The translations under genes and the position numbers were made by a program. Positions 717-49,640 of a DNA stretch of 64,000 bases are shown here, piece after piece. The notes beneath the pieces were generated by a model that saw only the letters and a list, made by a program, of their open reading frames with translations, was not told where the DNA came from and made no database searches. The first letter of the stretch is position 1; every line of letters starts with the position of its first letter. Source of the stretch: Ulota crispa (Eukaryota > Streptophyta > Bryopsida > Orthotrichales > Orthotrichaceae); assembly GCA_963920765.1 (NCBI GenBank), contig OY987246.1:25429167-25493166 (forward strand), read 5' to 3'.

Positions 717-956
717 TTAACCCGTAAAGAGCAAAGCAGCCCTTTGCGACCAGTAGAATACGGGGTTTTTTTTTTGTATTTGGAGTGCATCCACATTTAT
801 TATATTTGAGATCAACAAAGAAGTTAGAATATAGATCAATGTTGTTCTAGTGAGGTAGCCAAGATCCCAAATTAAAACTTTTTATTGGTAGCAAATGCTA
901 GTTATACATTAGCGTACATAGTATGTATTATAGTAGCTCACTCCTTTAAGGGTTAA
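717..956. mobile_element. Short TTAA-flanked piggyBac-like MITE
   Basis: A 232-base body lies between two TTAA tetramers (717-720 and 953-956). The left end reads CCCGTAAAGAGC and the right end CTTTAAGGG, so the first bases are inverted copies. It shares the phrase GCCCTTTGCG with the element at 17707-17931. No coding capacity. The TTAA boundaries fit a piggyBac-like non-autonomous element, but the inverted repeats are short and diverged. Confidence 0.45.
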
Positions 957-1743
957 ATTCCCAAGGCTACTTTTCTTGTTTCAAGAAAACATTTTGGAAG
1001 TTTCTGAATTGTAGTTGTAAGATAATTATCAAACATTTAAACAAAATTATAATTGTAAGATCTTGAACTTCAAAGTATCTCAATGGTGCTACTAAATAAA
1101 TTTCAAAAAACACATGCTGATGTTAAGATATTTGTGATTGAATATGGATGAGTAGGGAATTTACTTTTTTTCTTTGCAATTGCTCAAAACTTGTTAAGCC
1201 AAACTGGCACTTGTTGTGTACAAAATTGGAAATAACGACTTATGATGATTTAGTGTTTATTGTTGACTTTGTTATTATTGCAAATCTGATGACTCTCCTT
1301 CCAAATTTGTGAATACAATTTCACAAATGAGCCTGCAATAGAACAGTCAAAGAGCTACAACTTGACACAAGGGGAGATTTTAGCATCCACTTATTAACTA
1401 AAAAGAATACAAAAGTGAGTAAATATTGATTCCTATAAGAGAGATATTCCAAGTGAAATTAGAGCAAAAACACATTTGGATTTTATAAGATGATGATTTT
1501 TTTATACAAGGTCCCTCACTACCTACAAGGGAGATCTTGACTTTATTTTCAACTTATTTCCTATTTTTCCAAAGTGACAACTAGTCATAGGCTTTTCAAT
1601 GACGCTTTTAAACACACTTTTTAGAGTGCAGCAAATATGCTTGCACTTTCACTTCCACCAAAAATAATTGGAATAAGTATGAAAAACATTCAAACTGAAC
1701 ATTGATGCTGACTGTAGACCACAACTTCTTCCAATATATATAT
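957..1743. other. AT-rich spacer, no gene seen
   Basis: No ORF of note, no recognisable domain and no repeat ends. Confidence 0.45.
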
Positions 1744-3454: not shown

Positions 3455-4290
3455 TGGTGGACCAAGCCCTTTTTTTTTTTGCCAAAATCAGTAAAAACTG
3501 CCACTTCAAAAAATCAACTCATTCCACATGGAGAGGAGTGAGATATTTACAACTAAAGTGAAAAGAAAGTTTTTTTTCATGCTGCCCAAAAATTTCAGAA
3601 CCCTTTGACCACTCTTATAACAAAAAAATTGCTCTACCCAAAGTTGAGCTTTATTTTTTCCATGTAGTAGATCAAGTTAGGTATGTGTGGGAGAATTTTC
3701 AAATCAATTGGAACTACACAACACATGGGAAAAATCAATAAGTAAAAAGAAGTAGAGAAAAAGTCAAAACACTAAAAAGATAAGAATTTAATAATTGAAA
3801 TGAAAAGTGCAAATCCCAACGGTTATAATGTTGTGATAAACAATCCACTTCCTTTGGTTTATTTGTTTTTTCAAAAATATTGAAAATTGAGTAAAATAAA
3901 GAATTTCAAAGTTTATTTTAGAGTGGAGAATCCATAATTGCCCACAAACAAAAACTCCTCATAACTTTCATATCATTGATTGAAATTGAATGACTCAAAG
4001 CTTCTCACCTATAAAAAAATCTAAAGAACCAATTTCAAACTTTTACTTTTTAAAAATACAATTTTGAAAAAAGTTTTTGGGCTACCCGGATGGGCAGTCC
4101 TCCCCAACTTTTCATAAATTCATGCATAACTTCTTCATCAAATGTAGGAATGAATAAAAATTTAAATACCCACATAGATCTTTGAATTCCCCACCTTCAA
4201 TGAAAGTTTCAAAAAATCACACAAAGTAGTTTAGCCATAGGTACATGCCCAAAGTCCAACCTGTCCCCCGAAGGGACAATGGTCCTTATG
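3455..4290 (+). mobile_element. Diverged copy of the ~0.93 kb TTAA (piggyBac-like) MITE
   Basis: Body closely related over its length to the bounded element at 11236-12161: both contain TTGCTCTACCCAAAGTTGAG, AGGTATGTGTGGGAGAA and AACGGTTATAATGTTGTGA. The left end shows GGACCAAGCCC and the right end GGGACAATGGTCCTTA, but the TTAA sites have eroded. Non-coding. Confidence 0.65.
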
Positions 4291-5468: not shown

Positions 5469-6376
5469 TTAACCCTTTAGAGACCACCAAACCATATTTT
5501 GGTTTGGGAGAGTGGTTTTTGGCCTTTACATTAAAATCACTCAACAATTTGGAAAATGATCTTGAAGAATGCTTGTGATCACAAGAATTTTGCATCCAAC
5601 CCAAAAAACAACAATAGAATCAGACATGGGAGTTGATAAATAATGGTGTTTATAAATCATGGCCTCAAAATACATATCCATATTTGGTCAAAGATGGATC
5701 AAAGCAACAACACAATACATCAAACATCCAAGAAGAATGCCTTATTTCAATTGTGCAATCTTTAAAAACTTCAAATTGCTCAAGAAATATGCTTGTATTG
5801 TTTCTCTATAAGATAGTTGTACAATTGTACTATTTGAGAATCCATTGAGATGATGCTATCAATTTATCTTAAAAAAAAGTTCATCCTACATTTAAGGCCA
5901 ATTCTTGATTGCTTTCACCGATTAGATTTTTTGTAACAATTATCAAATTTCTTGTAGAACCGTTTTAGGGTAGCAAAGAAAATGGGATTTTTGACCCTTT
6001 TTGTCCACTTAGCTACACCTTGTGATTGTTATTTTTGTCTATTTTGAGTGAAACTAGTCTTGTTGGAAAGTAGGGAAACTCTACTTTCTAGAAATGTAAG
6101 GCTCTTCTCAATGCATGAAGCACTAACATTCAAAACCACACAAGCATGAAAAACTACAAATTTTCCATATATGGCTAACTCAATCATTATAATATTTCAC
6201 CTCTAGCGGTAGATCTAGTTGAAATTTTGATGCATTGCAACAAACAAGGTGCTCTTCACATTTGTATAGTTGGATTATTCAAATTGGGTCCATATTTGAT
6301 TCAAATGCACATCTAATCTTACTGCCCCCGTTTCTAGTGGATTTTGGGAAAATGTGTGTGGTCTTTAAAGGGTTAA
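5469..6376. mobile_element. TTAA-flanked piggyBac-like element, ~0.9 kb
   Basis: A 900-base body between TTAA at 5469-5472 and 6373-6376. The left end reads CCCTTTAGAGACCACC; the right end is the reverse complement of CCCTTTAAAGACCACAC, so 14 of the first 15 bases pair. ORFs inside (for example 5633-5848) show no transposase similarity. GGGG immediately left of the left TTAA may be the end of a second element sharing the same site. Confidence 0.5.
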
Positions 6377-9783: not shown

Positions 9784-10420
9784 TTAACCCCTACAGGCCC
9801 AAGTGGCCCCTCGGGGGTCAAGTGAGATTTTGGGCATGTACTTATGGCCAAATTACTTTGTGTGAATTTTTGAAACATTTATGGAAGATGGGGAATTCAA
9901 AGATATGCTTGGGCATCTATTTTTTCTTCATTCCAACATTTACTGAAGAAGTTAAAAATGAATTTTTGGAAACCAAGGGAGGGTAGGCAACCTAAAAACT
10001 TCTTTAAAAATTGCAATTTTTTAGAATAAGAATGCAAAATAAGTTATTTAGGGCTCAAAACCACACCTACCGACAAACCAAAACTTCTCATAACTTTCAT
10101 CTCATCTATCAAAATTGAATGATTCAAAGCCTCCCATGTATATATAGGCCTAAAGAACCTATTTTGCTTTCTTAATTTTAAAAAATTACAATTTTCTAAA
10201 AAGTTTTTGGGCTGCCTACCCTCCCCTAATTTCCAAAAATTCATTTTTAACTTCTTCAATAAATTTTGGAATGAAGAAAAGATGAGATGTCCGCATAGAT
10301 CTTTAAATTCCCCATCTTCCATAAATATTACATTTAATCACACAAAGTAGTTTGGCCGTAAATAGATGCCTGGAATCCCACTTTGGCCCCCGAGGGTCCA
10401 CTTGGACGTTGAGGGGTTAA
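9784..10420. mobile_element. Foldback derivative of the TTAA (piggyBac-like) MITE
   Basis: Bounded by TTAA at 9784-9787 and 10417-10420, with ends CCCCTACAGGCCCAAGTGG and CCACTTGGACGTTGAGGGG (inverted). The two halves (about 9788-10020 and 10175-10416) are inverted copies of one arm, the right-hand end of the family (ACTTTGTGTGA…GGTGGGGAATTCAAAGAT). So it is a two-armed foldback made of one end of the family. Non-coding; a 92-codon minus ORF is an accident of one arm. Confidence 0.75.
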
Positions 10421-10929: not shown

Positions 10930-11129
10930 NNNNNNNNNNNNNNNNNNNNNNNNNNNNNNNNNNNNNNNNNNNNNNNNNNNNNNNNNNNNNNNNNNNNNNN
11001 NNNNNNNNNNNNNNNNNNNNNNNNNNNNNNNNNNNNNNNNNNNNNNNNNNNNNNNNNNNNNNNNNNNNNNNNNNNNNNNNNNNNNNNNNNNNNNNNNNNN
11101 NNNNNNNNNNNNNNNNNNNNNNNNNNNNN
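10930..11129. other. Assembly gap (200 N)
   Basis: Exactly 200 undetermined bases, which suggests a placeholder length rather than a measured one. ORFs crossing it are meaningless. Confidence 0.97.
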
Positions 11130-11231: not shown

Positions 11232-12165
11232 TTAACCCGTAAAGGGCCAAGCCATTTTTTCAATGAAAAAGATTGAAAACTGCCACTTTTGGGGGAATGA
11301 GAGGAATGGTGTTTTTTTTTTTTTTTTTGAAATTCAACCGTGGGATCTTGCTCTAGACAGCATGAGGTACTTGGGAAAAAAAATTGATTTTTTTCCAAAT
11401 GACAAGGAGTAAGATTTTTACAAATGAAGTGAAGAAAAAAGTTTCTTTCATACTGCCCAAAAATTTCAAATGCCGTTAACCACTCCTATATCAAAAAAAT
11501 TGCTCTACCCAAAGTTGAGGTTTTTTTTCCCATGTAGAAAACCAAGTTAGGTATGTGTGGGAGAATTTTCAAATCAATTGGTACTATACAACACATGGAA
11601 AAAATTAGTAAGTAAAAAGAAGTAGAGAATGGGTCAAAACACTAAATTATTAAGAATTTAATAATTGAAATGAAAAATGCAAATCCTAACGGTTATAATG
11701 TTGTAATAAACAATCTACTTGCTTTGGTTTAGTTTTTTTTCCAAAATATTGAAAATTGAGTAAAATGAAGGACTTCAAAGTTTATTTTAGAGTAGAGAAT
11801 CTAGAACTGCCCGCAAAAAAAAACTCCTTATAACTTTCATGTCATTCATTGAAATTGAATGATTCAAAGCTTCTCATGTATGAAAAAATCTAAAGAACTA
11901 GTTTCAAAATTTTATTTTAAAAATGTGTAATTTTTAAAGAAGTTTTTGGGCTGCCCAGATGGGCAGCCCTCTCCAAAATTTCAGAAAAACGTGCATAACT
12001 TCTTCATCAAATGTAGGAATGAAGAAAAATTTAAATGCCCACATAGATCTTTGAATTCCCCACCTTCAATGAAAGTTTCAAAAGATCACATAAAGTAGTT
12101 TACTCATAGGTACATGACTGAAACCCAAACGGTCCTCAAAGTGACAATGGTCCTTTAGGGGTTAA
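11232..12165 (+). mobile_element. TTAA-flanked piggyBac-like MITE, type copy
   Basis: A 926-base body between TTAA at 11232-11235 and 12162-12165. Ends: CCCGTAAAGGGCCAAG and the reverse complement of CCCCTAAAGGACCATTG. Outside the TTAA the flanks (catgg / attga) share nothing, so TTAA itself is the target-site duplication. The interior has no intact ORF. Relatives: 3455-4290, 9784-10420 and 48561-49640. Confidence 0.75.
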
Positions 12166-12317
12166 ATTGAAAAAAAAAAAATTGAATTATGGATTTAAAT
12201 TTCAATATGTTTAGAGCCAATGTTTCATAATCTTATTTTTTGAAGTTCATTGTGCACAATGACTTTCACAAACATTGCTTATTATGCAAAGTTCACTCAT
12301 AGGAGAAGAAAAATACT

Positions 12318-13237
12318 TTAACCCCTAAAGGACCAAGGAGCCCACTTTGGGCTTTATGAGAACTTGGGCAGGCTCTATTGACTTCACAATTTGGGAATTT
12401 TTCATGAAATGTTTAGGATGAATGCTACTCATCATAATCTACATGGGAAGCTTTGTTTCATGTCATTCCAATAAGTAATGCAAAAGTTAGAAGGTTTTTT
12501 CAATTTCAATGTCAAACCGGGCAGCAAAAAATATATTTTGTTTTTGTTTTTTATTTTTTTATAGAATTGTCTAGGTTGATACCTACTCAAAAAAATTTGA
12601 ATCACCCAATTCCAAATAATGAGGTAAGAGTTAAAAGGAGTTTTCTTTTGCGGGCAATGAAGGTAAAAAGAAGGTAGAAAAAACTTATAAAGTTATCTTT
12701 TACTCTCAATTTTGAAAATTTTATTATGAAAATTAAAATTAAAATTAATAATTGTATGTTAGAGCATTCTCACCATTGGGATTAACAATTTTCAAATTCT
12801 TCCAAAACTTATTAGCATATTAGTATATCTTTCATTCATCAATAACTTTCACTTTACGATTTTTGTAAAAATGAATCCAAACTTTTGTTTGGTTAAATTT
12901 TTTTATCTATGCTTTCAACCCATTTTCCAACATATTGCTAAAATTGCACAAGAAATACAACATATGGGGTTTTCTCTAAAAAGTTTGAAAAACAAAATTT
13001 CACCTTCTAGAAGGACTAGAAAAGCCTACATTTTGAAATTTAGGCACATTGATTTTGCAATTGGTGGAGATGTTCATTCTGAAATTTTAGGACAATGTAC
13101 TTGTGCAAGCCAACCTAAGGATCCTACGGTTGGATTTGTTAAAAAGTAAGTTTCAATGAAGATTTTGACCTTGATTTGGATACTAGTATTTTGAAGCAGC
13201 TTTGGGCCTCTAAACACAAAAGAATTTTAGGGGTTAA
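12318..13237. mobile_element. TTAA-flanked piggyBac-like element, second subfamily
   Basis: Left TTAA (12318-12321) is followed by CCCCTAAAGGACCAAGGAGC; the right end reads TTTTAGGGG before TTAA (13234-13237). The interior differs from the neighbouring 11236 copy, and a 92-codon ORF (12871-13149) has no recognisable domain. Only 152 bases separate it from the previous element, so two insertions landed almost side by side. Confidence 0.6.
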
Positions 13238-13699
13238 TTGACAGTTCTATCTTGTTGTTTAGCCTTCATTGTAACTTTTCAAAATATATTTAGACTTTAG
13301 AACACCACTTCTCATATGACATTTGGAAATTTTCTACAGAAGGAAAGTTTTAAAACGTACAAAATGTAACACAAAGTCATAGTCCACATGCACATAATTA
13401 ACATGATTCATGCAAGCACATCATCATACAAGTGAATTAAGACAAGGTTGTATGCCTTTGAATGACAAACTTGTTCAATTTTATCTTTGGACTTCAATTG
13501 TTGAGTTTCAAGTTCTTCTTTTCACTTTTTTGTCTTATTTTAAATGAACCAAATCATCAATAGCTATGATTTTTTTGAAATATATATGTCACTAGTATAC
13601 AAGTACATGCTTTGCGTGAGTAGGACATGTATGAGTAATTTAACATTCAACTTTAGACAAAATATATATCTCACAAATCAATTGGTCTAGAATGTAATC

Positions 13700-14580
13700 T
13701 TGATATAATGTACAAAAATCAACATCTCACAATTGGTTTAGAATCTAATCCACATGTACCATCACTTTGGTCCTTTTTTAGATTAACAATATCAATTGCT
13801 TTCATCACAATGATACTCTTTTGTATTTTGCTAGGAGGTGCTTGGCATTTTATTGATTTCTAGCATATGATTGGAGGGCGTTTGATGTCTTATATTTCGG
13901 GCATCCTTTATAGCTTCAACTTCCACCAAAAAACTCTACAAAATTTTGGCTATAGGGCACTTGGTTTTCTATTTCTTGAGCATCCTTTGTTGCTTCAACT
14001 TACAACAAAAAATTCTAGAAGGTTCTAGAAAAGGGTGCACTTAGGGATATCCTCACTTAGTAGTATAGATATGTATCCAAGCTCCCACTCAAGTCTTGGT
14101 AACACACTCACCATAGATTCCTAATATTCAACTCCCCATATTGAAATTGGAAAAGCCACTAAGGAACATCAAACGGAACTTCTATTGATGTCCAACTCTC
14201 CTATATCTATACTACTAAGTGAGAGGATTTCTCTAAGTGCGCCCTTTTTCAAAATCTTCTAGAATTTTTTGTTGTAAGTAAAAGCAACAAATAGGATGCC
14301 CAAGATATAGAACACCAAGTGCCCTACAACCATGTCCATTTCCAAAATTTTGTAGAACTTTTTGGTGGAAGTTGAAACAATAAAGAATGCCCCAAATAGA
14401 AAACACCAAATGCCCTCCAACCATGTCCTAGAAATAAATAAAGTCAAGCGCCTCCTAGCAAAATATATAGAGTAGCATTGTGATGAAAGCAATTTGTATT
14501 GTTGGTTTCAAAAAAGGACAAAAACAATGGTGCATGTGGATTAGATTCTACATGAATTGTGAGATATTGATTTTTTGTAA
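13700..14580. mobile_element. Long inverted repeat (foldback), arms ~370 bases
   Basis: The left arm (about 13700-14078) and right arm (about 14200-14580) are diverged reverse complements. Landmarks: GCTAGGAGGTGCTTGGC pairs with GTCAAGCGCCTCCTAGC, and CTCACTTAGTAGTATAGAT pairs with ATCTATACTACTAAGTGAG. The loop is about 120 bases. A transcript would form a long hairpin, a potential small-RNA source; this is inference. Confidence 0.75.
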
Positions 14581-14597
14581 TATGCAATATAAAGCAG

Positions 14598-15615
14598 ATA
14601 TACCAAATTTCAGTTCCCAAAAATCAAAACTCCATTTTTGGAGAATTGTTTTGTAAGAAATTCATGGTTTTACATGATGATTTATTGAAAGATAATGGTG
14701 ATGAATTTTTGAGATTTAATTCCATGATGTGTAGGAACATCCATATGCACATCTTCCATGCTAAATAAAAATCCCTTAAATAACAAAAATTTTACTAGCA
14801 AAATATTCAATGAAACTTGTAATTAGGTAGGAGCACCCAATTGCAACACCAACCGTTCTCCAACATCTGAAATTAAACCTATAGTAGACAGATTTGCACC
14901 CAATCAAAACACAAATGCACCCAAACAAGACACAAATGCACCTAAATCAAACACGCAAGTTGACATAAGGGAATAAAAATTGTGTAGGTGGCAGTTTTTG
15001 ATTGAGTTGTTGCTTTTCAGGGGTCTAGTGTCTACAATAGGTAAGTCTAGGGAGTTGTCTTCAACAATTCATAATTCATTCGTATGATCTCAAAAAATTT
15101 CAAAAACAATTTTCCTTGCATTTGTATCCATTTCCTAACAAGCCCATGCCATCAAATTCTCAGATGACCCTCCCAATTATCACATCTAAGGTAAGTGTTG
15201 CATTTGGGTGCTTCTACCTTAGGCCCAAATTTTGTAAAATACATATTTTCTTATGAAAATCAAATTATGTTGTTTGACTCAAATATTGTTACTAAGTTTT
15301 TATCTCTAGACATCATGTTGTGTTTACTTGATGAAAAGTTAGTTAAAAAACAAAAATATGTATTTTACAAAATTTGGGCCTATTGCAAGTTTCATTGAAT
15401 CTTTTGCTAGTAAAGTTTTTGTTACTTAAGGGGGTTTTTTTAGCATGGAAGATGTGCATATGGATGATTCCTACATATCCATGGAATCAAATCTCAAAAA
15501 TTCATCACCATTGTCTTTCAATAAATCATCATGTAAAACCATGAATTTCTTACAAAACAATTCACCAAAAATGGAGTTTTGATTTTTAGGAACTGAAATT
15601 TGGTATACTTACTTT
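14598..15615. mobile_element. Second foldback, arms ~230 bases
   Basis: The arms 14598-14830 and 15385-15615 are reverse complements: GCATATGGATGATTCCTACA on the right pairs with TGTAGGAACATCCATATGC on the left, and AAACTCCATTTTTGG pairs with CCAAAAATGGAGTTTTG. About 550 unpaired bases lie between. No ORF of note. Confidence 0.75.
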
Positions 15616-16400
15616 ATATTGCATAAAGATGCAATGATATTTTTTCCTACCAAAATGGACCAATTAGACTCCATGTTTTTATAAAAAGAGCTAACTGGCT
15701 CAGATTAGGGTTTATATGTTTACTATACCCAACAGTACATCAAGATCAGATACTAGACCAACTGATTTGTGAAATATCAATTTTTTTGTAAAGTTGAATA
15801 TTGGAATACTCATACATATCCTACACACAAAACGTGTGTTTGTATACTAGTATCAACTAAGACATTACTCATAATTAACACTAATTGCCCTTGTGTGGTT
15901 GCCAATTTTCAAATATATTCCATTCACAGACAGTGAGACTTTTCTATTTCTACTCACCTATTGGGAATTATTGAGATTTACTGGTAGTGATTTAGTAAGG
16001 AACAAAGCACTATCCAACTAATAACAAGAGGTTCTCAAATGCATTTAATGATGCAATGAAGGCGGTAGTGAGGCTTCAACTCCAACCTTATTGCTTAAGA
16101 ATCATATAAGTTAGACTCAAAGTGGCTCCATATGGAAGTGAGGAGCATAACCAACCCCCTATAGTACTCTTAGTGGAAATTGGCAGCTCCGTCATTATAT
16201 AAGTCTAGAAAAACCTCCAAGAGCACCTAGGTTTTGAAAAATCAATCATTTTCCTTCCATTGGGACGATGCTATTTGATGAGCATAAAATAATGAGCTTT
16301 AAGCGGGGATTCAAGTTTTGGAGTGCAAGAACGGATTCTCAAGTTGAAATCAATAGAATAACTAAAAAATTAACAATTTTTTCAAGAGATGATAGTTTAA

Positions 16401-16812
16401 GGGAATTATTACAACGACACCCTAAATTGCTAGTAGGACACCCCTTTGAGCATGAAATTTGATAATTTAGTGCTATTTTTAATTTATTAAGCGGTCCACC
16501 ATTCATTCAATCATGATATTATCACCTCCTTTGAAAGAAAAAATGACAAATACAAAAAAAAAAAAATGAAATTTTATTGCACCAAAACTATTTTTTGATA
16601 TATTTTTTCTTTATGTAACTCAAAGGTCTTATATTTTTAGTTTGAAATTTAAGCACACGTATATATTTTTTAGTATAGCCTTAAAATGATAAAGGTGAAA
16701 CAAATCTTTTGATCCAAATAAAAAAATCAGTAGAATCCGCATTAAAAATCACATTTTCATGCTCAGAGGGGGTGTCTTGTTAGCAATTTAAGATGTTGTT
16801 GTAGTAATTCCC
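16401..16812. mobile_element. MITE, family C copy 2
   Basis: Same ends and interior as 2604-3001: GGGAATTATTACAACGACACC on the left and the inverted match ending GTAGTAATTCCC on the right, with shared CACCATTCATTCAATCATG. Non-coding. Two independent copies ending at the same bases support the limits. Confidence 0.8.
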
Positions 16813-17702
16813 TAATTTAAAATGCACAATTCTAAAATCATATACACACAATTATAGGTGAAATTTATAATTTTGACATAAAATCCAAGCTCATGGCTCA
16901 AGAATCCTTGCTCATGAAATAGCGTTCCCATGCAAAGATCCTTGTTTTTGTTATCCTGTACTAGACTACAATGAGCTATTTACTTTTTCCATTTGGAGAT
17001 ACCCTCTCGAAGAGTTGCAGGCACGATTGGGATGCCTATTTTGTACAACCTTGTTTTTTACTCAAATTTTCAATCTTCACCATCTTTGGATCCACACATG
17101 CGCTCACGAGCATGCGCTTTCATTAACTTTTCAAGGAATAAGGATTGTCACCTAATTTTTCATTAACAAAACTCTACACTACATTGTCCTATTTGAGACA
17201 TATGTCAGTCTTATAGCCAAGTTTTTTGCAAGGTCGTAGACCTCATTCTTTCTTGCTCACTAAGATGTTATAAGCAAATAGTGTAGGTACTTGTCAATCC
17301 AACAAGACATAAAATAATTTCAAGTCCGATTCTGCAAAATATTTTTTGCTCAAGAAAATAATTCTTATTTTGTATCTGCGCACTCTCATTTTAAATTTCA
17401 CTTGTGTAGTAAAACAATTGATTTTGTTACAAAATATTCCCTTGAAATAAAGCACTTTTTGTTCTATACCCACAGAATTTTTACCCGCACAATAAAAGGG
17501 ACGTCACTATTTTCTCACCCAAAAAAATAGTTATTTATTTTTTACCTACACAACTTTTTTACCCACATTGTAATCATTCACACAATTTTTTCACATTTTC
17601 TATTTTTTACCCATGCATTTTTTTACACATGCAATTTTTTACCCTCATAGGTTTTTACCTCTGCAAGTTTTTATCAAGCAAATTTTTTTACCCATGCAAT
17701 AC
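16813..17702. other. AT-rich spacer
   Basis: Includes a stretch (17470-17700) where the words TTTTTACCCA, TTTTTACACA and CACAATTTTTTTAC recur irregularly, a decayed short tandem array. No gene seen. Confidence 0.4.
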
Positions 17703-17935
17703 TTAACCCATGAACGGCACCGAAGCCCTTTGCGGCTGTATGTACAGCTGTGTACACAAACATATTTGAGCTATTTTGAGGGCTTTCCAAATTCTTTTAT
17801 GCACCCCACATCATACAATCCTTCAATATGAATGATTGTAACACTTAATTTCTAACTAATTCAAACTTCTAAATACTGGTTACGACCGTATTTGGTACCT
17901 TTATCTCCAAAGCCCATGTGATGTTCTGGGGTTAA
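17703..17935. mobile_element. Short TTAA-flanked piggyBac-like MITE
   Basis: A 225-base body between TTAA at 17703-17706 and 17932-17935, starting CCCATGAACGGCACCG and ending TCTGGGG. Shares GCCCTTTGCG and a following ATATTTGAG with 721-952. Non-coding. Confidence 0.45.
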
Positions 17936-20003
17936 AAGGGTCGCCAGTCGTACTCTATGATACATACAGATTAGTCAAGGAAAGTATCTCACACCAATGA
18001 CCAATGCAAATACCTTCATTGCAAAAATAAATTGAATAAAATTTGTGTATATGTTTTTTGAAAATCCTTTTACATAAATGTATGTATGTACATTGTACAT
18101 GTCCAATTTCAAAAATAAGTTTGCTTTTGAAATACTTGCAAATTTGCAAACTTGTAAATCACTTGCTACACAATCTTACAAAAAGGTGAAAAACAAACAA
18201 ATGTTGTAGATTTGATTCTAAAACCCAACATAAAGTGCTTTTACATTTTTTCAGGCTACATTTGAATATTATGACATTGGTCCTATAATTTTTGGAATGC
18301 AGAACTTTCGCTCATTTTTATCATTAAGGATAACTTTCACTTGCGACAAAAACCTGAATAACGTAAGTCTAATAAAAAGGTATAAATGGTGTTTGAAGAT
18401 TCCTTGTGGGATTAATGGCATAGGACCTCATTTACCAACTTAAGTATATGTTCCATAAATTGCTATCTAAGCCATGAGTGTTTCGAAATAATGGTATGTT
18501 TCGACTTATCTCTTATTGAATTATTAATAATGATTTCTTAAAGTAAATTACTTTTTTGAAGATTTTTATTCAAATCAAACTCTTACAGTTTGTTTTCTAA
18601 ACAAACAAATAATGAGACGCCAAAATAATAACATAAAGCAATCTACGACAAATGGATTGAAGATTTCCATATGCATACATGATCGAAATTCATTTACAAG
18701 GGAGTAAAATTTGTGTTGTTTTTTGTTTGTGTTGATTATTGAACTATACATCCTATATTAAAACATATTCTTTATTTTATTGTTTAAAAGAAATCCAAAC
18801 TTAATTAAATATGAATTATCCAAAGTCCATGATTGATAATTCAAAACTGATTTCCGTTGCAAACCATGCGAGGTGATTGCAAATGCAATTGTAAACATCA
18901 AAAGTTGTATACGAATTTGATGATATGCAAAACATTGAAGAATTGTCCATGTTTATGGACATACAAAGTCCTTACTTATATAAATAGTCCATTTAGATTT
19001 AAATATGGTATCAAGTTAGTGCAAAAGTTTTGAGGAATGATTATACTTAAAAAAAGCTACTGTGAGTTGTTTTGTAAACATGTTAATGAGATTTATTGAT
19101 AATAACACCATATTTGTTGTAACGAGAGAATGGGGACCTCTCAAAATAAACATTAAAATGAGAATTTTCAGCTCAAATTGAGTTGAATTGACATAAAACC
19201 TTTCAATTTCTAATCAAATCTAAATAGTTTTATGTCAATTCAGCTCAATTGACCTAAAACTTTTTGTTGAATTATCCTAAAACTTTTTTAATTTCAGGTT
19301 TTATTTTTTTAAAATTACTCATTTCACTGAAAAACTCTCATAATAATGAATATGGTGTTAAATCATGATAATGCTTGTTTATGCTTGAAAGAAATGAACT
19401 ACGTAACTTTATAAGTCTTGATTGATATCTAAAACTATAGGCCAGTAAGCCTGTTGGATACCAAGACAATAATCTATAAATAGTTTAGCTTCTAAAACTT
19501 TTGAATAAGTTAGTTTGGTGAAAAAACATGTATTTATTTTTAGAACTTGAAAGAAAGAAAAGTTACCTAGTTTATATTCTAATTATGTGTGGGCTACTAA
19601 TAATCTACCAAAATAAACTATAAAGGCAAACAAATAATTCATGTAGTCTTTAATATTCAAATGACATCTATATATACAATACAGTCCATATTTAGACGTT
19701 GTTTCGTTTAAATAAAAATTTCCAAAAAAAGTGCACTTGGTGTTTCTAAAATGAAAATGAAATAAAAACATCATTTACATATATTTTGAGAATCTACTAC
19801 ATGTCTTCTTTTTATTATTGAAGAACAAAATGTACACTAATATCATTTTTTTTCATTGCCAATATTATTGTTAATTTCTGTTTGTATGTGTAAAGCATGA
19901 CGACCTATATAAAATGAAACACAAATTTAAGAAATCTATTGTGTAGAAAATTTCAGAATTAAATGTCTAAGCTGCCAAAATGGAAGTTTTTATAACGTTA
20001 CCC
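17936..20003. other. AT-rich spacer, 2 kb
   Basis: No ORF above 64 codons, no splice-linked coding pattern and no clear TIR pair. Near 19160-19260 the phrases TTGAGTTGAATTGACATAAAA and CAGCTCAATTGACCTAAAAC recur, a small local duplication or inverted pair. Confidence 0.4.
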
Positions 20004-20964
20004 TTAACCCCTAAAGGACCATTATCCTTACAAGGAACAAATAGGATTTTGGGCAGGTACCTACGACTTCAAATTTTGTCCTAATTTTCTGAAACTTTTT
20101 TTGAAGATAGAAAAACACATTAGCTTTTGGAGAATATGATTTTTATTCCAATTGATGCCAGGGAGCAAAAGTTATGCCCAAATAAGCACAAATTTGGGGA
20201 CTAGGGGCAACAATTTTAAAAAAAAATTAAAAACTTGATTTTTTTTTCTTTATTTTATTATTTTATTTTATTTTTATTTTTTCTTTCTTTCTTATAGATT
20301 ATATCTTTTTGTACATCTGAAGCTTTGATTCATTCCATTTGGACCAGTTATGAGAAAGTTATGGACAATCTTGTTTTTTGGGCAACTTAAGCATCTTCTT
20401 GAAAAAATAACTTATAAACTTCATTTTTGAATGCAAGATTAACATTTTTTCAAAAAAAATTGTCGGAGAGTGTGAAGTTTGCTTTTTAGAACAATCTTGC
20501 CATTGGGATTATAGCATTTCAATTCAATTGCAGCGTTATTAGCAATTCAAGCTTTTGTTTAATCTCATACCTTCTTCTACCTAATGTTTTTTAAAGAATG
20601 AAAATTAAGTATTCTTTTTTCAAATTTTTTCCCAAGATTCCCAACTCAACTCTCCACCATGCAAAAATAGATTTCCAAACTTCATAGTGCAAAAATTTTA
20701 AGTTAAAAATGTTCAAAGTTAAAAAATCTAGTCAATCAAGGTGCAAAAGAAGTTGTTTTTATCACTTTAAGTGCGTATATCTTCCAATTTGTGCGGCCAA
20801 AGTTCTTGAGCTTTGAATGACATATTTTTATAGTAGTATAGCACAAGATCCTACGGTCAGATATGCAAAATGCCTAATTTTCAAACTTTTTTACTCTTTG
20901 CCATAGAGGTGGCAGTTTTGAGTGTCTTTTGACAAAATAAAGGTCATGGTCCTTTAGGGGTTAA
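20004..20964. mobile_element. TTAA-flanked piggyBac-like element with the best ends
   Basis: A 953-base body between TTAA at 20004-20007 and 20961-20964. The left end CCCCTAAAGGACCAT and the right end ATGGTCCTTTAGGGG are perfect inverted repeats of 15 bases. Flanks beyond TTAA (gttaccc / tttcat) do not match. The interior contains AT-rich non-coding sequence. This copy is the clearest evidence for TTAA target duplication. Confidence 0.8.
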
Positions 20965-21884: not shown

Positions 21885-23666
21885 GGGAATATTCCATGGA
21901 TACCCCTAAAGTTTGTCATATTTACATAGATATCCCTAGTTTTTAGAAATTACACAAATACCCTTGGTCCATAATTTTTAGGCGTTTGTTTTGTTACACA
22001 CATTACTTCTTTCATGATTAATCTTTAAAGAAGAGATAAAATAGAAGGGAAAAGAAGCAGCTTGCACACAAGAACACCATATTTGTTAAATTGGGAAAAA
22101 CGGAGGTACCATTTTGTACTCCACATTAAACCCAAAAAGTAACCTTAAACGGGATTTTAAGGTATCAGATACAGTATGAGCCATTAAGATTTGTTTCCCT
22201 CACAAATTCCTCCTCTCAGATGAGGGCACTAGGGCAATTTTTTTCAATTTTTAGGGACAGCTACCATGGCTTCCCTCTTCAGAAATAGGTAGGCAAACAT
22301 GCAACTATGCTTTTTTTTCCAAAAGAAACATATGGCAATGAGCCAAAAATTCATGTAGTAATAAAGCGACAACGTCAATTTCTTTGATACAAGTATAGGC
22401 AAGGGACTAAAATGTATAATTTCCATGGCTACTAGCCTACAACACTACAACTTTGAGAGTAATTTTACTTCAGGTTAAAGAAGTGGTACAAGTAGTTGTC
22501 ACTCAGCCCCTATTATCACTTCTCTATCTTAAAAAGTCCATGTATTTTAGGTCTTTCTTTCAAAATCTGGGTTTATTGGTATTTCAAGAAACATTTCAAA
22601 GCTCTTCACTTAATAGTGCAATTTTTTTTCCTTTGATCACACTTTGCACTAGATACAACATACTAGCTATGAAGATTTCAATTAGACATACAATTTATTG
22701 CCCCAACACCTCAGTTATTGCAATGTCAATTGCAAAACATCAAAAATAACTGAAATTTGTCAACTTAGCTAGCACTTATGGATGATTACAAAGGCTAATG
22801 AAGGAAAAAAGAAGGTCAAATATGAAAATGACACAATATGATCATTTATGATGACCAAAATCTCTAAGGAAGTGATAATAGGATAATTTCAAACTTGAGC
22901 TTTACCTTGACCTTACCTCATTGAAACATTGATAGCTAGTACATACTTCACTCATTTAATAATTTGGAACTTGGTACAAAATCTAGACTTGATTACCTTT
23001 TAAATGGTACCATAACCATTACATTTGGTGTATTGTAGCTCTTGTAATGAAAATTTGAATTAAGGCTTGATGATAATAGGGTAAATTGCATGTAGTAAAT
23101 TTGACCACAGTGACTAACATTTGTGTGCATTCATTCTTTGCCTAGTACTCCCTTTGCCAAGCCATTGAGCAACCCTCACAAGTTGCATTTTGGCAAAAAA
23201 TCTTGACGTGACAGTGCTAACTAGCAACATCCCTTGCTGAATGTCAGTCCCCTCTAGCAATGTGAATTGCCATGTGAAGTGCAATGTGGTGACTAGGGCA
23301 AGTGGGAGGGTTGTGATTTGGCTCTTAAAATTTATTTTTACCTATTTTTTCTATACTCCAATTGCCAAAGCCCATTGCCTAGTGCCATTTTGCACCAAAT
23401 CGCCTAAAAAAATGGGCTGGAGGGCACATGTACCAAAAGAAAAACCATTGCAAGCTCAATTTTAGGTGATCACCTAAAACCTTCAAAAGTCCCAAAATGT
23501 ATTGTTTTCCCCAATTTAGCGTATATGATGTTCAAGGTAGAAGAAGTGACTTGCACAATATAACAAACGCCTGAAAATTATGGATCAAGGGTACTTGTGT
23601 AATTTTTGAAAACAGGGCGTATCTACGTAAGTAAGGCAAACTTTAGGAGTATCCATGAAATTCCCC
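21885..23666. mobile_element. 1.8 kb TIR element carrying a nested element
   Basis: The left end GGGAATATTCCATGGATACC continues with CCCTAAAGTTTGTC and further blocks such as GGCGTTTGTTTTGTTA; the right end is their reverse complement in the same order (TAACAAACGCC … GACAAACTT-like … GGAGTATCCATGAAATTCCC). The inverted arms extend about 120 bases. A second element lies inside (22075-23532). ORF 22453-22749 (98 codons) shows no transposase motif that I recognise. Confidence 0.65.
22075..23532. mobile_element. Nested 1.46 kb TIR element, parent-like form of 45841-46117
   Basis: Left end AACACCATATTTGTTAAATTG…GGAAAAAC; right end GTTTTCCCCAATTTAGCG…ATATGATGTTC, its inverted match. Internal blocks shared with the 277-base element at 45841-46117 include TGTACTCCACATTAAACCC, CCCTCACAAATTCCTC and TAGGTGATCACCTAAAACC. 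It therefore looks like a longer family member of which the other is a deletion derivative. Confidence 0.6.
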
Positions 23667-33500: not shown

Positions 33501-36500
33501 GAATGCATCCACCTTAATTATTTGTAAGTTGTAAATCCGGACACTTTTCTTAATCCTTTCAAATTAAGTTGCTGTAAGGTTACAGGTTAAGTGACATAAG
33601 TTGAAACAAGCGCAGACTGGTGTTCGATTCATGAAAAGAGTGAACATTATTTGTGCAACTTCTGGTTTGGATATTCACTGACAAAGTTGGAAATTCGTAC
33701 AGAGATCTATCCCACAACGCCTTTTCTGGATCAATACCTCCGGAGCTTGGTGACCTGCAAGAAATACGGTTCATGTAAGCCTCCTCTTCTTGGACTTTGA
33801 CTCTGATGTCAGACTTTTCATCCTAGAATTAATCAGATTGTTATCTGCTTATAAACATGATTTAATGGAAAATTAGCGAGCAAGACAACACCGAAGTTTC
33901 TCTGAAGTTTTTCCGTTTCGCAGGAACTTGTCATTCAACGTCTTATCAGGTTCAATCCCAAAGCAGCTGGAAAACTGCTTCAATTTGGACACATTGTAAG
34001 CCAAATCTTAGTCCAGTAATTCTGTCCTTCATTCTATCTTATTTGTTTACAATTTTGCAGTTTTTGACACATGTAGAAAGCCCTCGATTGCCTACGCTAC
34101 CATTCTATGCAGAGCATACAAAGGATGGTAGATTTCTGAACGTATGAGTGCATACTGCATTTATTCTGTTGTGTTATACCTACATTGCATCTAGAAAAGT
34201 AAGTGTGGCTGCTCAGTAAGTCTTGCTCCTGGCTGCAGAGATCTTTCGTACAACAATTTGTCGGGAGAGGTTCCGGTCGCAGATTTTTTTGAAAAGTTTC
34301 CCCCCAGCAGGTAATTCGACAGTCTAGCCTAGAATTTTAATATCATAGACATCAGTTGGTGTTGGTCATGTCAGTAAGAACATTCGACATTGTCAGAATC
34401 AGTTACGAAATTTAGCTTCTGATAATCCTTAAGATATTACGTTAACTGCGAGGGTTATACCTTCTGTGGTAGGTTCTGCTTGAAAAAGCCTCATTGTATA
34501 CAATCTCAAGGAAGTTTGTATCTAGTCTTCCGGATATTTTGATAGGCTCTATGAAACAAGGATTTAGCTTACTGCCATTTTTTTACTGATAATCTTCTAA
34601 ATATGGGTGTGGGGTTGTGGCAGCTATTTTGGCAATCCACAGCTATGCGTCTCACCGAACAGCTCGTGTGGGAGGAACTTGTTTTCTGGAGTTGGACCTC
34701 GAACGAATGGTAACATGCCTCGATACGCTTGGAAGGCTGCATATGAGGGACACTTGAGTTGCTTAATAAAATTCGTGACTGGCGGGACTGTCACACCATA
34801 AGTGTGTACCGCGATGTGTGATTGCGAATATTCTCAGATTCTCATACATTGATGGGCGTTTTGGTTCTGGCACAGGTTCATTGGGAGGAACAGCTGCTTG
34901 GGGAATCGCAATCTCTGCAATATGCCTATTCGCTCTTCTGCTCTTCGGTGCCATGCGCATCATGCGACCCGGTCACCTTCTGAAGCTGCCAAAAACATCA
35001 CAAGGTATATTCTGATTTAAGAACAACATACATATCAGGGTAGATATCCATTGCATTTGTAACCGGTGCAAGCTACCCCACATCTCAAAAATCATATTGT
35101 TCATACATGTGGTGTGATAAATATACAAAACCGGAGCAAACTGTGTTACAACAGTCAAGGTCGGTAGTAGAAGTGCTCGGCTCACGAGGTTTGGGTACTT
35201 TATCCGCGCGAGCTGCAGGACCACCGAGTTTAGTGACGTTTCACTTGGGGATGGCGCCACAGTCGTTCGAGGAGATGATGCAGCTGACGGAGAATCTGAG
35301 CGAGAAGTACGTGGCAGGACGAGGCGGTTCGAGCACAGTGTACAAATGTACTCTCAAGAATGGCCACTCAATCGCCATCAAGAAACTCTTTAACTACTAC
35401 CCCCAAAACATTCAGGAGTTCGAGACCGAGTTAAATACGCTGGGCAATATCAAACACCGCAATATTGTCAGCTTGCGTGGCTACTCCATGTCCTCTGCTG
35501 GCAACTTTCTCTTCTACGATTTCATGGAATATGGCAGCTTGTACGACCATCTTCATGGTATGTAAGACCCCACTCTATGTGGGTGTCTGTCAGTCTGCTG
35601 GTCTGTCAGTGTCAGTCTGTCAGTCTGTAGGTCTGTTTGTCTTCGAGCTTCCCTCCGCGGGAAGATTTGAAAGACTGAGGGGTAATCTTTGTTTGGTAGT
35701 GATGGCATGTCTGACTTCTAAACGTGTATGCTTTGATATTATGTTTTCTGTATCGGTTCAAAGAGACTGACAGGGAATCTTCCTAGCTAGCTAGTGCCCA
35801 GCCATATGTCGAATATTCAGAGATTTAGCAGCACTAAAGACTTGGTTGGAATAATATGCCACAGGTCATGCAAAAAGGTCGACCAAGTTGGATTGGAATA
35901 CACGTTTGAAGATAGCGCTGGGAGCTGCCCAAGGGCTGGCATACCTGCATCAAGACTGCAAGCCTGAGGTGGTTCATCGAGATGTGAAATCGTGTAACAT
36001 CCTTTTGAATGCCAATATGGAGGCCCACCTGTGCGACTTTGGGCTTGCCAAGAACATTCAGCCGACTCGGACGCATACCTCGACGTTCGTGCTGGGGACA
36101 ATCGGTTACATCGATCCCGAATATGCCCAGACGTCCCGTCTGAATGACAAGTCGGATGTTTACAGCTTCGGCATTGTGATGCTGGAGCTTCTCATGGGCA
36201 AAAAGGCTGTTGAGGACGAAGTGAACTTGCTCGACTGGGTGTGCCCTCTTCTCCTGCTTGCCCTCATCTCATCGCAACCACTAATCCAACAGTAGTCGAT
36301 TCAGCAGGGCACTGTGGATTCTTAGCTCCATTACTCGTAAAACTTCATGAAATTCAGTTGCTACCACTTTTCACTTTTCAGCCCATCGATCGGGAGTTCC
36401 TGTCGTTAGGAAAAATGGGTGGCACTCTGTCTTTATAGTAGTTCGCTAGATTCGTCGTCATGTCGAAATTAAACCAAATGACAGCATCAGACATAATAAA

Positions 36501-37065
36501 CCTGACGGGTCAAAGTGTCTGAGGGAAATTAAACTGAAATGAGGGCGAGCGACCCCAATTACACTTCCTAATTCGAACAGTCTTATATGGAAGAAAGTGT
36601 TGGTCATCCCAATCGAAACAGAAAACTTTGAAATAAATAAATAAATAAATAAATAAATAAAATGGTCTAATTCTCTGCTCGGATGTGCTCATTGTGCTGT
36701 GCCAGGTGAGGTCAAAGATCGACGACCGAAATGTGTTGGAATTCGTGGATCCGTACGTGCGAGCAACATGTCCCAGCATGGACCACCTGGAGAAGGCGCT
36801 GAAGCTGGCATTGCTATGTTCGAAGCAAACGCCATCGCAGAGGCCCTCCATGTACGACGTGGCGCAAGTGCTGACGTCGCTGCTGCCCGCGGTGGCGCCA
36901 GCGCCGGCGCATCCCTCGAGCTACCCGTCGCCCGGATCGAAGCACCGGCGCTACATCGACACCTACAGCGCCAAGCAAGCCGAGGACATTATCGCCAGTA
37001 GCAGCAACTCCGGAGGCGACTTGCTCGACCAATTTGAAGATGTCATCTCTCGAAATGTCCTCTGA
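27502..37065 (+). CDS. ERECTA-family leucine-rich-repeat receptor kinase, 28 exons, 1,000 aa
   Basis: Plasma-membrane receptor Ser/Thr kinase; in flowering plants ERECTA kinases perceive EPF/EPFL peptides to control stomata and growth (family knowledge). Exons: 27502-27619, 28086-28221, 28661-28732, 28935-29006, 29397-29468, 29619-29690, 29794-29865, 30021-30092, 30315-30386, 30597-30665, 30983-31054, 31178-31249, 31439-31510, 31727-31798, 32191-32262, 32420-32491, 32701-32772, 32979-33050, 33255-33326, 33500-33523, 33703-33774, 33924-33995, 34239-34310, 34624-34709, 34876-35004, 35219-35557, 35865-36238, 36706-37065. All junctions are in phase; total 3,003 bases. Residues: signal peptide about 1-37, cap with WRGVLCDNVTF to 85, about 20 LRRs 85-572, membrane helix about 606-626, kinase with GRGGSSTVYK at about 677, AIKKL lysine about 701, HRDVKS aspartate 796, DFG aspartate 814, then GTIGYIDPEYA. 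LRR exons are 72 bases, phase 2. The start at 27502 is preferred because it opens a signal peptide; 27415 is an in-frame upstream ATG. The region before DLSHNAFSG differs from ERECTA by an extra 8-codon exon. Confidence 0.93.
33500..33523 (+). other. Putative 24-base microexon in the LRR array
   Basis: A segment bounded by TTTCAG and GTAAG that would encode eight residues (ECIHLNY plus flanks) in the same phase 2 as the 72-base LRR exons. Including or skipping it leaves the reading frame intact. It could be a shrunken LRR exon, a facultative cassette, or chance splice sites. Confidence 0.45.
36630..36661. repeat. (AAAT)n microsatellite in the last intron
   Basis: Tandem AAAT units ending about 45 bases before the final acceptor of the ERECTA-like gene. 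Confidence 0.9.
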
Positions 37066-40961: not shown

Positions 40962-41374
40962 ATCTTTTAAAGCTTATAAAAATATTTTATAAGATTGTTT
41001 TTTTTTAATTCATTTGGTTAGTAATAGAAGGAAAAATAATAAAAAATATCCTTTAAGTCTTTCAAAATATCAAGTTTACGCCAAAAATATGTGAAACATA
41101 AAAAGTAGTCCTTATTTTTTGTAGGAATATCAATTATACTCCTTTTATTTTAGAAAACTTCAAAAAATTTTAATGAGGTCCAAAAAGATTTTAGAAAGAT
41201 TTCAAAAATAAACCTAAACTATTGTGATAGTTTTTTTGAAAGTATTTTGATGATTTACAAAAAGATTCCTAAAGGACTCTAATTCAGTCTAAGAGATTCT
41301 ATTTCTATAAGTATTTTGAAGTACTTTAACAAATTCCATAAAGATTTTAAAAAGACTCTCAAAGATTCTAAAAA

Positions 41375-42255
41375 GGTTCTTGAAAATTTTTAGAGATTTT
41401 CAAAGATTTTTTGAATTTAAAAAAGGATTCTCAAAAGATTCTCAAAGATTCTCAAAGATTCTCAATTGTTCTCAAACATTTTCAAAGATTCCAAAATACT
41501 TGAAAAGATTCTCAAAGATTCCAAATGATTCTCAAAGATTCCTAAAAGATTCTCAAAGATTCCTAAAAGATTCTCAAAGATTCTCAAAGATCCAAAGATT
41601 CTTGAAGATTCCAAAGAGATTCTCAAAGATTCTCAATCGTTCTCAAACATTTTCAAAGATTCCAAAAAAACTTGAAAAGATTCTCAAAGATTCCAAAAGA
41701 TTTTCAAAGATTTCAAAAAGATTCTCAAAGATTCCCAAAGATTCTCAAATATCCTCAATTATTCTCAAACATTCTCAAAGATTCCAAAAAACTTGAAAAG
41801 ATTCCCAAAGATTCCAAAAGATTCTCAAAGATTCCTAAAAGATTCTCAAAGATTCTAAAAAGATTCTCAAAGATTCTCAAAGATTCTCAAAGATTCTCAA
41901 AGATTCTCAATTGTTCTCAAACATTCTCAAAGATTCCAAAAAAACTTGAAAAGATTTCAAAAGATTCTTAAAGATTCTAAAAAGATTCTTAAACATTCTC
42001 AAACATTCTCAAAGATTCTCAAAGATTCTCAAAGATTCTCAATTGTTCTCAAACATTATCAAAGATTCCAAAAAAGCTTGAAAAGATTCCGAAAGATTTC
42101 TAAAGATTCATGAAGATTCCTAAAAGATTCTCAAAGATTCTAAAATCTCAAAAAGATTCTTAAATATTCTTAAAAATCCTAAAAAGATTCTCAATGATTC
42201 CCAAAAGATTCTTGAAGATTCTTAAAGATTCACAAAAAATTCCCAAATTATCTTC
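41375..42255. repeat. Decamer minisatellite (AAAGATTCTC)n
   Basis: About 880 bases of imperfect 10-base units, variants AAAGATTCCA, AAAGATTCTT and blocks CTCAATTGTTCTCAAACATT repeating every 150-300 bases, which shows a higher-order duplication. The ORFs here simply read the repeat. Ten-base spacing of A-tracts would favour curved DNA. Confidence 0.88.
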
Positions 42256-44836: not shown

Positions 44837-44868
44837 AGTCTAGCCACATCTAGTAATTTGATTTTAGA

Positions 44869-45692
44869 AAAAAAATCAAAAAAATCAAAAAAAAATCAAA
44901 AAAATTAAAAATATCAAAAATATCAAAAATATCAAAAATATCAAAAATATCAAAAATATCAAAAATATCAAAATTATCAAAATTATCAAAATTATCAAAA
45001 TTATCAAAAATATCAAAAATATCAAAAATATCAAAAATATCAAAATTATCAAAATTATCAAAATTATCAAAAATATCAAAATTGTCAAAATTATCAAAAT
45101 ATATCAAAAATATCAAAATATATCAAAAACATCAAAAATATCAAAATTATCAAAAATATCAAAAATATCAAAAACATCGAAAATATCAAAAATATCAAAA
45201 ATATCAAAAATATCAAAAATATCAAAAACATCAAAAACATCAAAAACATCAAAAACATCAAAAACATCAAAAACATCAAAATTATCAAAATTATCAAAAT
45301 TATCAAAATTATCAAAAATATCCAAAATATCCAAAATATCCAAAAATATCCAAAAATATCCAAAATATCCAAAATATCCAAAATATCCAAAATATCCAAA
45401 ATATCCAAAATATCCAAAATATCCAAAATATCCAAAATACTCAAAATATCCAAAGTATCCAAAGTATCAAATATATCAAAATATATCAAAATATATCAAA
45501 TATATCAAAAAATTTCAAAAATTTCAAAAATTTCAAAAATTTCAAAAATATCAAAAATATCAAAAACATCAAAAACATCAAAAACATCAAAAATATCAAA
45601 AATATCAAAAATATCAAAAATATCAAAAATATCAAAAATCTCAAAAATATCAAAAATATCAAAACAAATCAAAACATATCAAAAAAAAATCT
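44869..45692. repeat. Nonamer A-rich minisatellite (AAAAATATC)n
   Basis: About 820 bases of 9-base units AAAAATATC with blocks of variants (AAAATTATC, AAAAACATC, AAAATATCC). Variants occur in runs of several identical units, a sign of local expansion. All long ORFs on both strands (up to 206 codons) are readings of this repeat, because 9 is divisible by 3. Confidence 0.95.
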
Positions 45693-45840
45693 TGTTTTTT
45701 AAGACCTCTTATTATTATTATTATTTAAATTAATTAATTTTTTGACAACCAATAGGGGCTAGTTCCCAACATTGAGAATAGCCAAAACTCACAATCCCTT
45801 AGAGGACTTAATTTTTTCTAATGAAATAACATGGAAGATA

Positions 45841-47603: not shown

Positions 47604-48136
47604 TTAACCCCTAAGCGCCCAAAGGGGTAAAAGCAAAACATAGATGCATTATAAATTGATATTTTTGTAACTTTAATGAAGGTTGCTTCAAAAGAGAAGA
47701 TAAGAGTTGTGATACTTAGTAATTATCTATATGGTCAAACATTCAAAGAAAGTTTTGAACTCTTATTTAATGAATTTAGAAGCATTTACCATTTAGTATT
47801 CATCAAAATTACAATTTTTATTCATGGAATTTAAAGTTTGATGATTGGTTGAAAATAGACACTCTATCCAAAACTTCAAAAACAAAATCTTTTCGAAGGG
47901 GACAACATCATTAGTTTTCAATAATAGTAAATTTTGTAACACTAGCAATCATTGAAGTGTTTGTCTTGGAAGAATTCTCATTCATGGAGTTTAACTTGGG
48001 TTGACAAGATTCAAATTGGGTTGGAAAGTAGACTTGCTTTCCTAGATAAAAGTGTATTTGATTTTTTCAAATAATGATTTATTTTTTCATTTTGGGCAGC
48101 AATAAAAAAATAGTCTTTTGGGCATTTAAGGGTTGG
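47604..48136. mobile_element. Probable TTAA piggyBac-like element, right site eroded
   Basis: TTAA at 47604-47607 is followed by CCCCTAAGCGCCCAAAGG; the right end reads CTTTTGGGCATTTAAGGG followed by TTGG. The ends pair imperfectly (CCCAAAGG / CTTTTGGG). About 525 bases, non-coding. Confidence 0.45.
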
Positions 48137-48560: not shown

Positions 48561-49640
48561 TTAACCTCTAAATGACCTTTGTCCCTTTGGGAGATAAATG
48601 GGATAGGCATGTACTTTTGAATAAGCTACTTTGTGTGATTTTTTGAAACTTTTATTGAAGGTGGGGAATTAAAGATCTACAAGGGCATTTAGTTTTTTAT
48701 TCATTTTGACATTCAATGAAGAAGCTATGCAAGAATTGATCAAAACTAGGGGAGAAGGGGCAATTCAAGTAACCAAAAAACTTCTTTAAAAATTGCATTT
48801 AAAAAAATAGAAACTTGGAACTAATCGGTTCTTTAGATTTTTTTATACGTGGGAAGCTTTGAATCATTCAATTTCAATTAAAGAGATGAAAGTTATGATG
48901 AGTTCTTGTTTGCGGGCAAGTATGGATTCTCGACTATAAAATAAACTTCAAAGTCCTATATTTTACTTAATTTTCAATGTTTTGAAAAAAAAACTACGAA
49001 AGGAAGTAGATTGCTTATCACAACATTATAACCGTTGGGATTTTCATTTTTCATTTCAATAATTAAATTCTTAACAATTTAGTGTTTTGACTCATTCTCT
49101 ACTTCTTTTTACTTACTATTTATTTCCCATGTGTTGTATAGTTTCAATTGATTTGAAAATTCCCCCACATATACCTAGCTTGATCTCCTACATGAAAAAT
49201 TAAAAACACAACTTTGGGTAGAGCAAGTTTTTCATGTAAGGGTGGTCAAAGGCTTATGAAATTTAATAGCAACAAGGAAACACTAGTAGAAAACCGCGTT
49301 GGAGCCATTTAAATTATGTCATGTAGTTTATGTTGAGTTTCATGTTTCCAATGCAAAATTTTGCTAAACATCGCAAAATTTTGCGCTATTCAGCAAAATT
49401 TTGCATTGGAAACATGGAACTCAACACAAACTATATGACATAATTTAGTGAGTTCCAACGCAATTTTCTTATAGTAAAAAAAACTTTTTCCCTCCACTTC
49501 AGATGTAAATATCTCCCTCTTCTCCATCTAGAATGATTTGATATTCCCCCATAAATACCTCTTCTAGTCCAAGGCAAGATCCTACACGATTTTCCTTACC
49601 TGCTTGCATATGCGGTTGCGTGTTGCTCTATCAGCAAAAA
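48561..49640 (-). mobile_element. Reverse-oriented TTAA (piggyBac-like) MITE interrupted by a CACTA MITE
   Basis: TTAA at 48561-48564 is followed by CCTCTAAATGACC, then the reverse complement of the 11236-12161 element (for example TTGTGTGATTTTTTGAAAC, AACGGTTATAATGTTGTG on the minus strand). Family similarity resumes after the CACTA MITE at 49281-49476, reaching the AAGATCCTAC block near 49590. The far TTAA is not visible. Confidence 0.65.
49281..49476. mobile_element. CACTAGTAG-family foldback MITE inside the piggyBac-like copy
   Basis: Starts CACTAGTAGAAAACCGCG and ends CGCAATTTTCTTATAGTA, with long pairing arms (GTTTATGTTGAGTTTCATG / CATGGAACTCAACACAAAC) and a TTTTGCGCTATTCAGCAAAA centre. 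It splits the surrounding element, so it is the younger insertion. Confidence 0.7.

Follow-up and report, generated by a model that had tools for sequence, protein, structure and literature searches.

A stretch of 64,000 nucleotides from the moss Ulota crispa, hereafter the window (contig OY987246.1 of GenBank assembly GCA_963920765.1; C5:25429167-25493166 in a genome of 275 Mb and 157 contigs), contains seven elements with TTAA at both ends and terminal inverted repeats (TIRs) that face each other. A preliminary description made from the letters of the window had assigned them to a piggyBac-like family of miniature inverted-repeat transposable elements (MITEs). Every element start quoted there is present in the sequence and the seven starts treated here belong to two-ended elements, but two others do not: 47604 has a left end only, and at 48561 a partial copy comes to its end. 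Nor was the single family borne out, since the window elements represent several. Here we describe these elements together with the transposase genes of the same genome.

All 14 ends of the seven elements, which are listed without strand, have a TIR that starts with CCC (CCY). The element at 20004..20964 is 961 bp long including both TTAAs, has sister copies with empty sites and is bounded by the 15-bp perfect TIR CCCCTAAAGGACCAT; the identical ends previously claimed for it are thus confirmed. A second family is represented by 11232..12165 (934 bp; TIR match 12 of 14 bases), just downstream of an assembly gap that ends at 11129, the window containing 200 N. Partial copies of this family are found at 3522..4287 (+ strand, 87%) and 48561..49264 (- strand, 81%), the latter being the one-sided 48561 mentioned above. 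The MITE at 12318..13237 (920 bp) has a weaker right TIR, which matches the left one at 9 of 14 bases, and a full-length copy of it (90%) is located at L013 2435-3351. The near-palindromic MITE at 9784..10420 (637 bp), related to the 11232 family over part of its length, has an inverted self-match of 76.8% over 654 columns; given this near-palindrome (77%), a transcript could fold into a single long hairpin, a possible source of small RNA. The MITE at 5469..6376 (908 bp) has CCCTTTARAGACCA ends and shows the best TIR match to a transposase element, L023.

The remaining two MITEs are short and have weaker TIR matches: 717..956 (240 bp; 8 of 14) and 17703..17935 (233 bp; 10 of 14), the family of the latter also occurring elsewhere in the genome as inverted neighbours that overlap by 4 bp. 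The 717-956 element, with CCC on one side and the rest of an L022-like element end on the other, apparently was inserted into a TTAA within the degenerate TIR of a larger element of piggyBac type. Next to it, 954..1518 (+ strand) is a subterminal stretch of an L022-related element, with a 71% match to L022 575-1146. The right flank of 717 has some 30 matches in the genome that start near the presumed CCCTTAA join. At 47604..48044 (+ strand) lies the left part of another TTAACCCC element, no right end of which was found.

Whether such ends pair by chance was evaluated by shuffling. The motif TTAACCC occurs nine times in the window as compared to 4.7 expected and a shuffle maximum of 11, which is weak on its own. 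Facing end pairs with TIRs that agree at 8 or more of 14 bases number seven, which none of 300 shuffles attains (mean 0.65); at 10 or more matching bases there are five pairs, with a shuffle mean of 0.06, and at 11 or more there are three, with none in the shuffles. A chance origin of the paired ends is ruled out by this comparison. Outward-facing pairs in the real sequence (2, 2, 2 and 1 at 8, 9, 10 and 11 of 14) also exceed the shuffles, as would be expected of elements that lie side by side.

Genome-wide copies were then collected for five of the elements, considering the best 40 matches for each and counting the window copy. End-to-end matches numbered 37 of 40 for 20004 (from 3,393 candidates; other copies 84-89% identical), 34 of 40 for 5469 (2,416 candidates), 31 for 11232 (9,859 candidates), 35 for 717 (3,194 candidates) and 31 for 17703 (1,898 candidates), these candidate numbers of a first look not being copy numbers. 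In the 20004 family, studied by means of 20 fetched copies and the window copy, the copies diverge 3-7% from their majority sequence and contain, whatever the frame, at most 118 codons without a stop, hence they encode no transposase.

The same 21 copies were used for analysis of the TTAA flanks. TTAA is present on the left of 19 copies, on the right of all 21 and on both sides of 19; the two left misses are a copy that reads TTAG and a copy for which the match starts only at base 15. The bases outside TTAA are variable and seldom the same as the constant base inside it (left outer G in 1 of 21, right outer C in 1 of 21), therefore the duplication comprises TTAA alone, and a longer target-site duplication was rejected. 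It might be argued that TTAA simply belongs to the inverted repeat of the element, without any target duplication, since the 19 copies with TTAA on both sides would then be expected too.

In a search for empty sites, the two flanks of each of 66 end pairs (309 kb) were joined with a single TTAA between them, which gave 39 spanning matches. Upon removal of self-matches (L013 1501-2438, L014, L031) and of duplicates from overlapping loci, eight insertions were left. The preliminary description had proposed to check empty sites in related genomes for a single TTAA; here, with paralogues from the same genome only, exactly one TTAA is found between continuous flanks for five of the eight insertions, two of which are transposase elements. 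The transposase elements are L023 and L034; the other three are MITE copy L054, L017 and a double insertion in L013. For L054, empty copies with one TTAA are found at window 15226-15626 (a repeat copy on the + strand, 90.5%), at window 14581-14823 and in L013; the double insertion has an empty copy with TTAA, at 95%, within the same locus; and L017 has an empty paralogue with TTAA at 73%. The empty copies of the transposase elements are both in the window, that of L023 in a repeat copy at 22525-22806 (- strand, 75%) and that of L034 at 47785-48044 (78%), inside the partial element described above. These single-TTAA sites reject TTAA as a part of the TIR, an explanation we now regard as very unlikely, and together with the variable outer bases they bear out that TTAA is the duplicated target. 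Neighbouring copies were encountered as well: in the searches with 11232, 17703 and 717, four of nine extra matches overlap their neighbour by exactly 4 bp, read as one shared TTAA, and in L042 the join of neighbouring copies via a shared TTAA is directly readable.

No transposase fragment was detected inside the 64-kb window (best E-value 0.28). The genome as a whole shows at least 120 matches to PF13843, the piggyBac transposase domain, with a best E-value of 1.3e-73; scoring covered the best 116 of the 528 candidates, and in a few cases several matches represent fragments of a single gene. When an open frame of 365 residues in L027 was compared with PDB by phmmer at E-values up to 0.001, it matched only piggyBat (9c0f, 2.5e-20) and Trichoplusia ni piggyBac (6x67/6x68, 7.2e-19), and a profile of six frames matched the same two (1.6e-45 and 6.4e-39), without any other match up to E 1. 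Equivalents of catalytic residues D268, D346 and D447 are present in 36, 30 and 33 of 39 sampled domain stretches, respectively, and all three are kept in 26; gaps aside, 13 of 15 replacements are D to N. In piggyBac a Cys-rich domain is located after the transposase domain. With all three frames considered and without shuffled control, a Cys motif (C-x2-C followed by more C and H) was identified at 13 of 19 loci, 61-70 residues past the domain. One scan of a viral and of a genome contig collection, with one peptide pattern from transposase alignment A1 each, identified no relatives. Two transposase-like loci, L030 (3010-4296; C1:1180709-1181995) and L031 (C8:19570986-19572215), each consist of two stop-free blocks with an intron-like spacing, of about 270 and 78 bp respectively, and either is a candidate for a gene that is expressed or has been domesticated.

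Twenty transposase loci were inspected with their flanks. Piggybac-type ends were judged present on both sides in eight, 5.0-5.7 kb apart, leaving out L021 and L031, which have more distant candidate end pairs. Thirteen of the 16 ends of these eight elements read TTAACCC, the others being TTAACCT (L026), TTAACTC (L034) and TTTACCC (L035). Hence the piggyBac-type DDD transposase with the same kind of ends that had been proposed as a check is indeed found in the same genome (PF13843, D-D-D, 8 of 20 loci). The closest correspondence is between MITE 5469 and L023, with end matches of 17 and 18 bp, TTAA counted, at 94%. Very probably, then, the window elements are non-autonomous piggyBac elements, MITEs that would have been moved by the DDD transposase of longer elements of the same genome. 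Of the two possibilities raised before, colonisation of this lineage by piggyBac or convergence of an unrelated family on TTAA, the first is supported by the single-TTAA empty sites and by transposases with the same kind of ends.

Several results weigh against this. The insertion at L055 has an empty paralogue with TTAG rather than TTAA; at L015 and L012 the alignment is not clean, the L015 paralogues having TTTG, TTTC or TTCC at the site; and further paralogues read AGAA, AGAA, TCAA and AGTA for the L013 double insertion, and TTAT and ATAA for L017. When the flanks of each of the seven window elements were joined, with the 11232 flank taken without its 8 N, no match across both flanks was obtained among the best 40 of 727 candidates, all matches beyond the window itself corresponding to the right flank of 717. 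In only three of the 39 stretches (L027, L031 and L032) is the sampled domain free of stops with the full D-D-D triad, and a convincing end pair is lacking in each: L027 has no ends, L032 a right end only and L031 the distant candidate pair. Thus an intact, complete transposase gene with both ends was not shown among the 39 stretches and 20 flanked loci. The Cys-rich tail of L025 matched no Pfam family above cut-off and no piggyBac chain in PDB, and a structure model was poor (predicted local distance difference test score, pLDDT, of 37) and left unused. Finally, the 20004, 11232 and 12318 families match the ends of the eight transposase elements over at most 12 bases, four of which are TTAA, and 717, 9784 and 17703 have no end match to transposase elements at E 0.05.

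The latter two observations would fit MITEs that derive from another superfamily, with the piggyBac transposases as a separate resident of the genome. Kolobok and Sola3 also target TTAA, and their proteins fall outside the family search, which was made with PF13843 only. Against such an origin stand the 17-18 bp that 5469 has in common with L023, as well as the TTAA plus similar CCCYTWAAnGnCCA-like end common to MITEs and transposase elements, and we consider it improbable. For MITEs of piggyBac type the following mechanism may be envisaged. Longer elements would make the DDD transposase, which would bind the CCCYTWAAnGnCCA-like ends and cut at the TTAA boundaries, upon which the element would insert at another TTAA and so acquire TTAA on both sides. 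The MITEs would be mobilised in trans by cut-and-paste, any pairing of a particular transposase with a particular MITE being putative. Insertion into or beside other elements is seen, and candidate copies are in the thousands.

The transposases are diverse, with 26-84% identity among 39 sequences (median 35) and 13 clusters at 55%. In a phylogenetic tree two animal sequences split off with supports of 100/99, on long branches that meet; since these are the only two outside sequences and both are long-branched, the origin is not settled by the tree. As far as the sequences tell, this diversity does not fit well with one recent transfer, several transfers being an alternative. The sampled copies are mostly broken. 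The 39 stretches contain 116 stops (63 TAG, 36 TGA and 17 TAA), and in 51 of these a TAG faces Q or W, or a TGA faces R or W. Among the 21 copies of the 20004 family the cytosine transition rate is 0.279 at CG (165 site-copies), 0.182 at CHG (461) and 0.037 at CHH (5,596), rates at CG and CHG being 7.5 and 4.9 times that at CHH. This pattern suggests the mark that is expected of plant methylation. The numerous decayed transposase genes with ends like those of the MITEs suggest long residence of the superfamily in a land plant.

The superfamily is best known from animals and fungi, also according to passages of PMC10140906, which could point to contamination of the assembly by animal or fungal DNA. 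The copies are spread over contigs C1-C11, of which C1-C10 also hold psaA/psaB fragments in the manner of nuclear plastid DNA; their decay is biased to CHG as well as CG; and the window itself holds a receptor kinase that we presume to be ERECTA-like. PsaA gave its best PDB matches with 8htu (1733 bits), 6l35 (1713) and 9lut (1698), the rest scoring 1651 and below, and the first two are Physcomitrium patens structures. On the sequence data alone the host is almost certainly a land plant and probably a moss. Contamination was rejected on contig placement, plastid fragments, PsaA matches and CG/CHG decay, and its probability is negligible.

Some further features were observed. Contig C157 has complete psaA and psaB frames and was taken as the chloroplast; 46 of 48 psaA/psaB matches, some of them weak, lie outside it, indicating frequent transfer of plastid DNA. 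The exons of the receptor kinase are at window 35044-37065, where kinase domains were matched and BRI1 is the nearest solved relative. Low-complexity stretches at 44857-45733 (NIKNIKNIK-like) and 41320-41971 (FSKDSQRF-like) are open in several frames and probably are simple-repeat arrays, not genes.

The preliminary description knew of little precedent in land plants. This is roughly so for described transposases, albeit not absolutely, since PiggyBac labels do exist. Occurrence in plants is stated in a passage of PMC10140906; PiggyBac is named in excerpts of other papers among the MITE superfamilies of angiosperms (PMC10004981) and among plant DNA transposons (PMC10794571); and repeat tables list 1,230 repeat-masked PiggyBac fragments in the fern Ceratopteris (PMC6890710) and one fragment of 75 bp in Stipa (PMC8319324). 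For mosses, a passage of a 2017 gene-targeting paper presents piggyBac as an insect-derived system yet untested in P. patens (PMC5505980), one of the two text matches in the Niphotrichum genome paper is the word 'piggybacking' (PMC10619864), as is the text match in PMC12531127. A search of the open-licence literature, with subscription papers and repeat databases outside it, found among the papers listed no description of native bryophyte piggyBac transposases. The superfamily, in short, is an established one whose occurrence in this host lineage has been poorly documented.

Tentatively, and at slightly less than even chances, it can be proposed that a deep piggyBac community of several lineages has persisted in mosses since their early history, through vertical inheritance and not by recent acquisition, that it was restrained by CG/CHG methylation and that a large part of the MITEs of mosses stems from it. 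In animal genetics piggyBac serves as a standard tool, and a moss genome with so many diverse elements of its own widens the documented range of the superfamily, raises the question whether land plants lost piggyBac or mosses gained it, and offers a natural plant setting for the study of TTAA insertion and methylation silencing.

Compared with known systems, the moss elements resemble piggyBac of T. ni and piggyBat in their TTAA target, their TIRs starting with CCC, a D-D-D domain with the GVDxxDQ motif and, possibly, a Cys-rich motif after that domain. Kolobok and Sola3 are alike in target, but their transposases differ. The PiggyBac named in plants carries the same superfamily label, as it appears in the passages and table rows seen of those papers, whereas here there are transposases, shared ends and empty sites. 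In contrast to piggyBac and piggyBat, with which the moss transposase domain shares only 20-34% identity, two of the moss copies (L030 and L031) look intron-split and the host is a plant; moreover, the moss elements measure 5.0-5.7 kb, as compared to 2,472 bp given for T. ni piggyBac in a passage of PMC10140906.

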